A stretch of DNA of 64,000 bases from Halotia branconii CENA392 (GTDB lineage Bacteria; Cyanobacteriota; Cyanobacteriia; Cyanobacteriales; Nostocaceae): positions 4,443,455 to 4,507,454 of the forward strand of contig NZ_CP124543.1 in NCBI RefSeq assembly GCF_029953635.1, read 5' to 3'. Positions 47,026 through 47,953 of this stretch are shown piece by piece. The stretch's first letter is position 1. Every line of letters begins with the position of its first letter. The notes beneath the pieces are model-generated. The model had not been told where the DNA came from, made no database searches, and saw nothing but the letters and a program-made list of their open reading frames with translations. The position numbers and the translations under genes were made by a program.

Positions 47026-47464
47026 GATTTTATCGTTTTGATATCATTACCAGTTACCAGTTAGCAGTTATTTTTTGCTGTTCACTGGTTTAATTTATTG
47101 TATTTATTACTTTTTGTTTTAGCTGTAAATGTTTTACAATACCTCTAACTGAGGCATATAATTTACTATCAAGATTTCAGTTCTGGGGATAGTTGACAGA
47201 GTAAACATTCTAGAAGCAAGTAATCTGTCTGGAGAAGAAAATGCCCCCACAGCAAATCTTCAAAAAATTAACAAAACTTAAACACTAGATTTAACGAGAA
47301 ATATGGGTGAATTTATTTTTAGAGGCGATGTTTAGTTTAGAGTAATATAGAAAATAGACATTAAGTTACTGTCTCCCAAGAACATCACTCATAAGTTAGC
47401 ATTGTCTTACGTCGGCATTATTTGCCAAGCAAAGCAAAATCTTAAAAATTGAGAGGAAACCGTT
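47026..47464. other. AT-rich promoter gap before the IF-3-like gene
   Basis: About 440 bases lie between divergent genes. Apart from ACCAGTTACCAGTTAGCAGTT filler near 47047 it is AT-rich. An AGAGGA ribosome-binding site at 47452-47457 has no ATG, GTG or TTG after it at normal distance, only ATC at 47465. No structured leader of known class is recognised. Confidence 0.5.
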
Positions 47465-47953
47465 ATCGTAGTCCAAAAGCAACTGATTAACTCACAAATC
47501 AAGTCACCTCAAGTCTTCTTGATTGACCATGAAAATAACAATCGTGGCCTGATCGATACTTATGAAGCTCTACAGATAGCACAAAGCGTAGAGCTTGACC
47601 TAGTTGTAGTCTCCCAAAGCAAAGACACTCCAGTAGCGAAGATCCTCAACTACGGCAAGCTTCAATATCAAAAGAAAAAGCGTCAGGGACAAAGTGCTAG
47701 ACATGTAGTCAAAGAAGTTAGGCTTCGTCCAAATGTGGGTGCGGCTGATTACAGAATACGTATTGAGCAAGCAATTCAGTGGTTGAGTAAAGGTGACTCA
47801 GTCAAGTTTGCCATTCGTTTAAGAGGTAGAGAAAATCAATATCGTGACAAAGCTGGAGAACTGCTAGAGCAAGTTGTCAACGATCTTAGTGAAGTAGGTA
47901 AAGTCCAGTCGCTTGATAAACGCTCGTTAATTGCTCAAGTCATTCCTGCTTAA
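47465..47953 (+). CDS. infC: Translation initiation factor IF-3-like protein, probable AUC start
   Basis: IF-3 binds the 30S subunit and checks start-codon selection. The N-domain core INSQIKSPQVFLIDHENNNR corresponds to the family's INxxIrxxxVrLI segment; the linker is rich in Lys/Gln (LQYQKKKRQGQSARHVVKE), and the C-domain has VRLRPNVGAADYRIRIEQA and FAIRLRGREN. The first usual start codon in frame, TTG 47519, falls inside the conserved N-domain and cannot be right. Upstream to the in-frame TGA at 47450 the best candidate is ATC at 47465, seven bases after AGAGGA. This gives 162 residues. IF-3 genes with AUU or AUC starts that autoregulate are known. The sequence is divergent and may be a second IF-3. 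Confidence 0.75.
   Translation: MVVQKQLINSQIKSPQVFLIDHENNNRGLIDTYEALQIAQSVELDLVVVSQSKDTPVAKILNYGKLQYQKKKRQGQSARHVVKEVRLRPNVGAADYRIRIEQAIQWLSKGDSVKFAIRLRGRENQYRDKAGELLEQVVNDLSEVGKVQSLDKRSLIAQVIPA

Follow-up and report, generated by a model that had tools for sequence, protein, structure and literature searches.

The 64,000-nucleotide stretch of DNA analysed here (the window) carries, on its forward strand at positions 47465–47953, a gene that by its sequence encodes a two-domain translation initiation factor IF3. Judged by sequence comparison, this protein (IF3-2) is an anciently diverged IF3 paralogue in a nostocalean cyanobacterium, and its translation probably starts at an AUC codon at 47465, behind a Shine-Dalgarno sequence and an 8-nt spacer. 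The explanation that we favour as a whole, with a probability of about three in four, is that of a second, AUC-started IF3 whose output follows how much free IF3 activity the cell has.

The coding sequence specifies 162 amino acids and ends in a TAA stop codon (47951–47953). Its translation matches the IF3_N and IF3_C domains in that order, PF05198 over residues 8–74 (77 bits, against a cut-off of 26.9) and PF00707 over residues 81–150 (69 bits, cut-off 34.8). The NCBIfam infC model TIGR00168 was also matched, at 132 bits against a cut-off of 60, and the solved structures in the PDB that were matched by the sequence and fold of IF3-2 are those of bacterial IF3. An AlphaFold model had a pLDDT near 90 in the C domain and was poor in the N domain, because the alignment was shallow; it was therefore used solely to confirm the C-domain fold.

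The possible start region is bounded by an in-frame TGA at 47450–47452, after which the frame reads GAG GAA ACC GTT ATC GTA GTC CAA AAG CAA CTG ATT AAC. The first canonical-type start codon is TTG at 47519–47521, which encodes the internal residue Leu19 and falls downstream of most of the conserved INSQIKSPQVF, inside the IF3 N-domain. A Shine-Dalgarno sequence, AGAGGA (47452–47457), overlaps the TGA, and its GAGG core (47453–47456) is separated by 8 nt from the ATC at 47465–47467. The 16S rRNA of the same genome ends in GGATCACCTCC, which is complementary to AGAGGA. The sequence-only reading had stated that no ATG, GTG or TTG precedes the conserved residues, the first TTG lying within the domain, and that AGAGGA stands seven bases ahead of ATC; both statements agree with the frame and positions just described.

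For comparison of start codons, 80 Nostocales loci were retrieved, making 81 with the window. The codon aligned with ATC 47465 was ATC in 78 of the relatives and ATA in two (79 and two when the window is included). An in-frame stop was present five codons upstream, at the position of TGA 47450–47452, in 60 of the 81 loci. The codons on either side of the ATC were variable: the upstream codon was ATT (61 loci), GTT (13), CTT (3), ACT (3) or CTC (1), and the following codon GTA, GCA, GTC, GCC, GGA or ACC. Within so close a group two other isoleucine codons are almost as invariant, so that conservation of ATC among the Nostocales cannot by itself decide the matter, and the sample was therefore widened.

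Inspection was extended to the start regions of roughly one hundred further loci from many cyanobacterial families, giving 174 distinct loci in total, 123 of which had GAGG within 70 nt. In this class-wide set, the codon 8 nt after GAGG was AUH in 108 of the 123 loci (82 ATC, 18 ATT and 8 ATA), always in frame, and ATG, GTG or TTG was found at this place in none of the 123. Another 10 of these loci had AUH at a spacer of 9. At the other spacers tested, AUH was found in 0 to 51 of the 123 loci, the value of 51 occurring at spacer 5 because the preceding codon, which is variable, is often ATT. The conservation of GAGG-N8-AUH is thus well beyond chance. By eye, nearly all of the remaining 51 of the 174 loci showed a comparable purine-rich stretch, such as GGAG, GAGAG or GGGA, and an AUH codon at the corresponding position. 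Where the protein was extended at its N-terminus, the AUH codon was shifted along with the Shine-Dalgarno sequence (L149–L162 and L177); the layout in L149 is GGAGG-AAATCGCT-ATC, and L154 and L177 provide further examples. In the relatives the site is thus occupied by ATC, ATT or ATA and never by ATG, in line with the start first proposed from the letters of the window. It is the more distant families, together with the constant distance from GAGG, that carry the weight for the predicted AUC start.

Annotation pipelines start such genes elsewhere. A start at the internal TTG 47519 would yield the 144-aa protein that they call, and plasmid copies have been annotated from the equivalent TTG. Three observations rule this start out, and we regard it as barely conceivable. 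Purifying selection on codons 2–18 (pN/pS 0.20) equals that on the rest of the gene (0.19 for codons 19–161), whereas the same frame upstream gives 0.91; the residues ahead of the TTG align to the beginning of the IF3 N-domain, the crystal structure 1tif aligning from query residue 7; and some relatives have no NUG codon at that place. In addition, no GGAG- or GAGG-like sequence is present within 20 nt upstream of 47519. A start at a neighbouring non-canonical codon (47462, or the ATT at 47486), or at an NUG farther upstream by way of a frameshift or read-through, is very improbable. An ATT does precede the proposed start in 61 of the 81 Nostocales loci, and two adjacent AUH codons might both serve, but the codon at 47462, which the window has as GTT, is also GTT, or else CTT, ACT or CTC, in other loci, whereas the following ATC or ATA is invariant, and 47462 was rejected as a start since the codon there is not conserved. 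The codons from ATC to 47486 are protein-constrained, which argues against the ATT there, and read-through is not conserved, because the close upstream stop codons vary in identity and place. The expectation that automated annotation would truncate the gene was borne out in relatives begun at TTG in RefSeq NZ_CP046705 and in the submitter annotation of AP018320; another plasmid copy was annotated from an upstream TTG. This suggests that many IF3-2 database records have wrong N-termini.

The source genome (7.1 Mb, 99.97% complete) also contains a canonical infC at C1:4340668–4341198 (L221), with an ATG start, and the window gene is therefore a second IF3, as had been supposed. The two proteins share the order of IF3 domains and are about 40% identical. 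Unlike IF3-2, the canonical gene has no clear Shine-Dalgarno sequence ahead of its ATG, and its product has a linker four residues longer, an EGR motif and a PKK tail. A weak IF3-like match (E 0.17) elsewhere in the genome, at C1:5382345–5382602 (L003), lies inside a 688-aa open frame and is probably due to chance. In a tree of 82 proteins, IF3-2 formed one clade (SH-aLRT 100) and the canonical cyanobacterial IF3 a group of their own (91), and the IF3 of E. coli, Bacillota, Actinomycetota and Alphaproteobacteria stood apart from IF3-2 (support 90). The window protein fell within the IF3-2 clade and did not cluster with the canonical cyanobacterial factors. The tree came from a short search and has long stems and few outgroups, so that it does not fix the root or the origin of IF3-2. 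A phage source was considered and rejected, phage IF3 relatives being less than 60% identical and thus giving no link.

Of 388 cyanobacterial genomes searched, 107 had IF3-2. In 34 genomes, nearly all from one family and many of them near-complete and in few contigs, it was the sole IF3. Fourteen of the 34 (13 from one family and one from another) had a single infC-type gene, which was IF3-2. In the other 20, from the same family, every copy was of the IF3-2 type, with 38–45% identity to the canonical query and E values of about 1e-29 to 1e-34, and no canonical infC hit was obtained. Among 116 genomes chosen for completeness, 85 had the canonical gene only, 25 had both and 6 had IF3-2 only. 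Since IF3-2 is the sole IF3 in 34 genomes, it must work as an IF3 there, and this genomic inference indicates that it can probably serve as the general IF3 of a cell. A specialised role, as suggested for the window gene from its divergence, thus needs qualifying: the gene is indeed a second IF3 here, but in one family the same lineage may do the general job. That family (f27) appears to have lost canonical infC and to rely on IF3-2. Some genomes have two or three IF3-2 genes, for example Nostoc sp. FACHB-152 (L026, L047, L055) and Atlanticothrix (L004, L014). Copies are also present on large Nostoc plasmids (L218, L219, L220), with the AUC start retained.

Residues of the N-domain were compared using canonical numbering, which corresponds to that of E. 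coli. R25 is replaced by Phe or Leu, and Q33 by Asn, each in 97% of IF3-2 proteins; R66 is replaced by Lys, which is also present in most outgroups. IF3 residues that contact the elbow of the initiator tRNA reportedly modulate fidelity, according to work by Singh et al. in 2022, and from the same work we take R25, Q33 and R66 to be fidelity-linked. In every IF3-2 protein the linker lacks four residues; the PKK tail and three residues ahead of the last conserved Arg are missing as well. In the C-domain, arginine is kept across the IF3-2 family at the positions of E. coli R99 (87%), R129 (99%), R131 (100%), R133 (100%), R147 (98%) and R168 (89%), which presumably make up the 30S-binding face; in the window protein the R147 position is occupied by Gln, and the equivalents of R112 and R116 are not kept in IF3-2. 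Shortening of the IF3 linker causes the start site to be decoded wrongly (PMC8266586). Given the changed fidelity-linked residues and linker, altered start-codon selection by IF3-2 is possible.

The region upstream of the gene contains a promoter-like conserved block at 47405–47440 on the forward strand. Its consensus in Nostocales is GTGTTACnTTAGnATTACTTGC, and its columns are highly conserved when 80 upstream regions are aligned. It is recognisable as GTTACCCTGGTATT in other cyanobacterial families and, on its conservation in the window and in L004–L083, may represent an atypical promoter or a site for a regulator. A search upstream for a structured leader or riboswitch gave no Rfam match up to E 1. 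Neither flanking gene encodes a protein with a match in the loci of the 80 Nostocales relatives, which extend up to 2 kb to either side, and there is therefore no operon logic for IF3-2.

AUH-started IF3 genes are textbook examples of autoregulation, mainly for the single infC of a genome, and AUH starts of IF3 are known also in Bacillus. Here the non-canonical start is on an ancient paralogue that stands beside an ordinary AUG-started infC and replaces it in one family. The infC gene of E. coli resembles the IF3-2 gene in its IF3 domains and in the layout GGAGG-AATAAGGT-ATT, with the same 8-nt spacer and an AUH codon. It differs in starting with AUU, in belonging to the thrS-infC-rpmI-rplT cluster and in encoding the only IF3 of the genome, whereas IF3-2 is a paralogue that stands alone, starts with AUC, has a shorter linker and is without the PKK tail. 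The dsg gene of Myxococcus xanthus is an IF3 gene with a reported AUC start, and in this it is like IF3-2. It carries a 66-aa C-terminal extension (PMC2129111), which is absent from IF3-2. The AUA start of Staphylococcus aureus infC was detected by ribosome profiling (Ribo-Ret; PMC13009471). That gene is likewise an AUH-started IF3 gene for which auto-regulation is likely, but it comes from a member of the Bacillota, uses AUA and is not a cyanobacterial paralogue.

IF3 discriminates against AUU, AUC and AUA starts (PMC4611024), and in the passages of PMC9845219 and PMC1780047 that cite Butler et al. (1987), changing AUU to AUG is described as abolishing autocontrol of E. coli infC. By analogy, we infer that this AUC may be repressed by IF3, by IF3-2 or by both. 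The AUC codon would hold IF3-2 output low, because IF3 rejects codons whose third base is unpaired to the initiator anticodon. A shortage of IF3 relative to 30S subunits, whether of the canonical factor, of IF3-2 or of both, would allow the IF3-2 gene to be translated, and a plentiful supply of IF3 would shut its translation down. Where a genome has two IF3 genes, repression could come from the canonical factor, from IF3-2 or from the two together; where IF3-2 is the only one, repression could come only from IF3-2. With its changes at R25 and Q33 and a linker four residues shorter, IF3-2 may be a poorer discriminator; its feedback on its own synthesis would then be weaker, and repression would fall to the canonical factor. 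No demonstration of a cyanobacterial IF3 discriminating against AUC was found in the literature.

The main rival to feedback is constant throttling, in which AUC is merely a weak start that sets a constant low level of IF3-2. Weak non-canonical starts do limit expression where autoregulation is not known, as in E. coli pcnB and in cvfC1 and ccpN of S. aureus (PMC13009471), and a conserved Shine-Dalgarno sequence and spacing would also be expected of plain strength setting. However, the product of this gene is IF3, the very factor that discriminates against AUH codons, and in 34 genomes the AUH-started gene encodes the only IF3; throttling a presumably essential factor is less natural than feedback. 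We consider a constant level possible but doubtful. The opposite sign of control, positive feedback by a relaxed-fidelity IF3-2 that permits non-AUG starts including its own, is quite unlikely. The replacement of R25 by Phe or Leu and of Q33 by Asn, the shorter linker with its decoding effect described above, and the reported role of elbow contacts all point that way; yet as the sole IF3 of 34 genomes IF3-2 must serve ordinary initiation, it retains the arginines that match E. coli R129, R131 and R133, and the isolated C-domain of IF3 discriminates (PMC4611024). A broader extension of the feedback explanation, which we regard as rather unlikely, is that the two IF3 lineages differ in start-codon stringency, so that canonical IF3 would restrain IF3-2, and IF3-2, once accumulated, would alter the range of accepted starts, forming a fidelity switch, with the second lineage having taken over in one family.

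No description of a second cyanobacterial IF3 was found in the full-text literature, which is weak evidence of novelty as many journals lie outside its coverage. As far as the literature searched shows, the paralogous cyanobacterial IF3 lineage, whose AUH start is conserved alongside a partner that starts with AUG, would be new, and so, within the same scope, would be the replacement of canonical infC by IF3-2 in one family. The system offers a natural experiment on whether a rare start codon, factor residues and regulation evolve together. Outside the cyanobacteria, AUH codons were seen near the likely N-terminus of infC in Sinorhizobium (L251, ATT), Anoxybacillus (L252, ATT) and Falsirhodobacter (L254, ATA). 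AUH starts may be common among IF3 genes, with the canonical infC of cyanobacteria as the exception.
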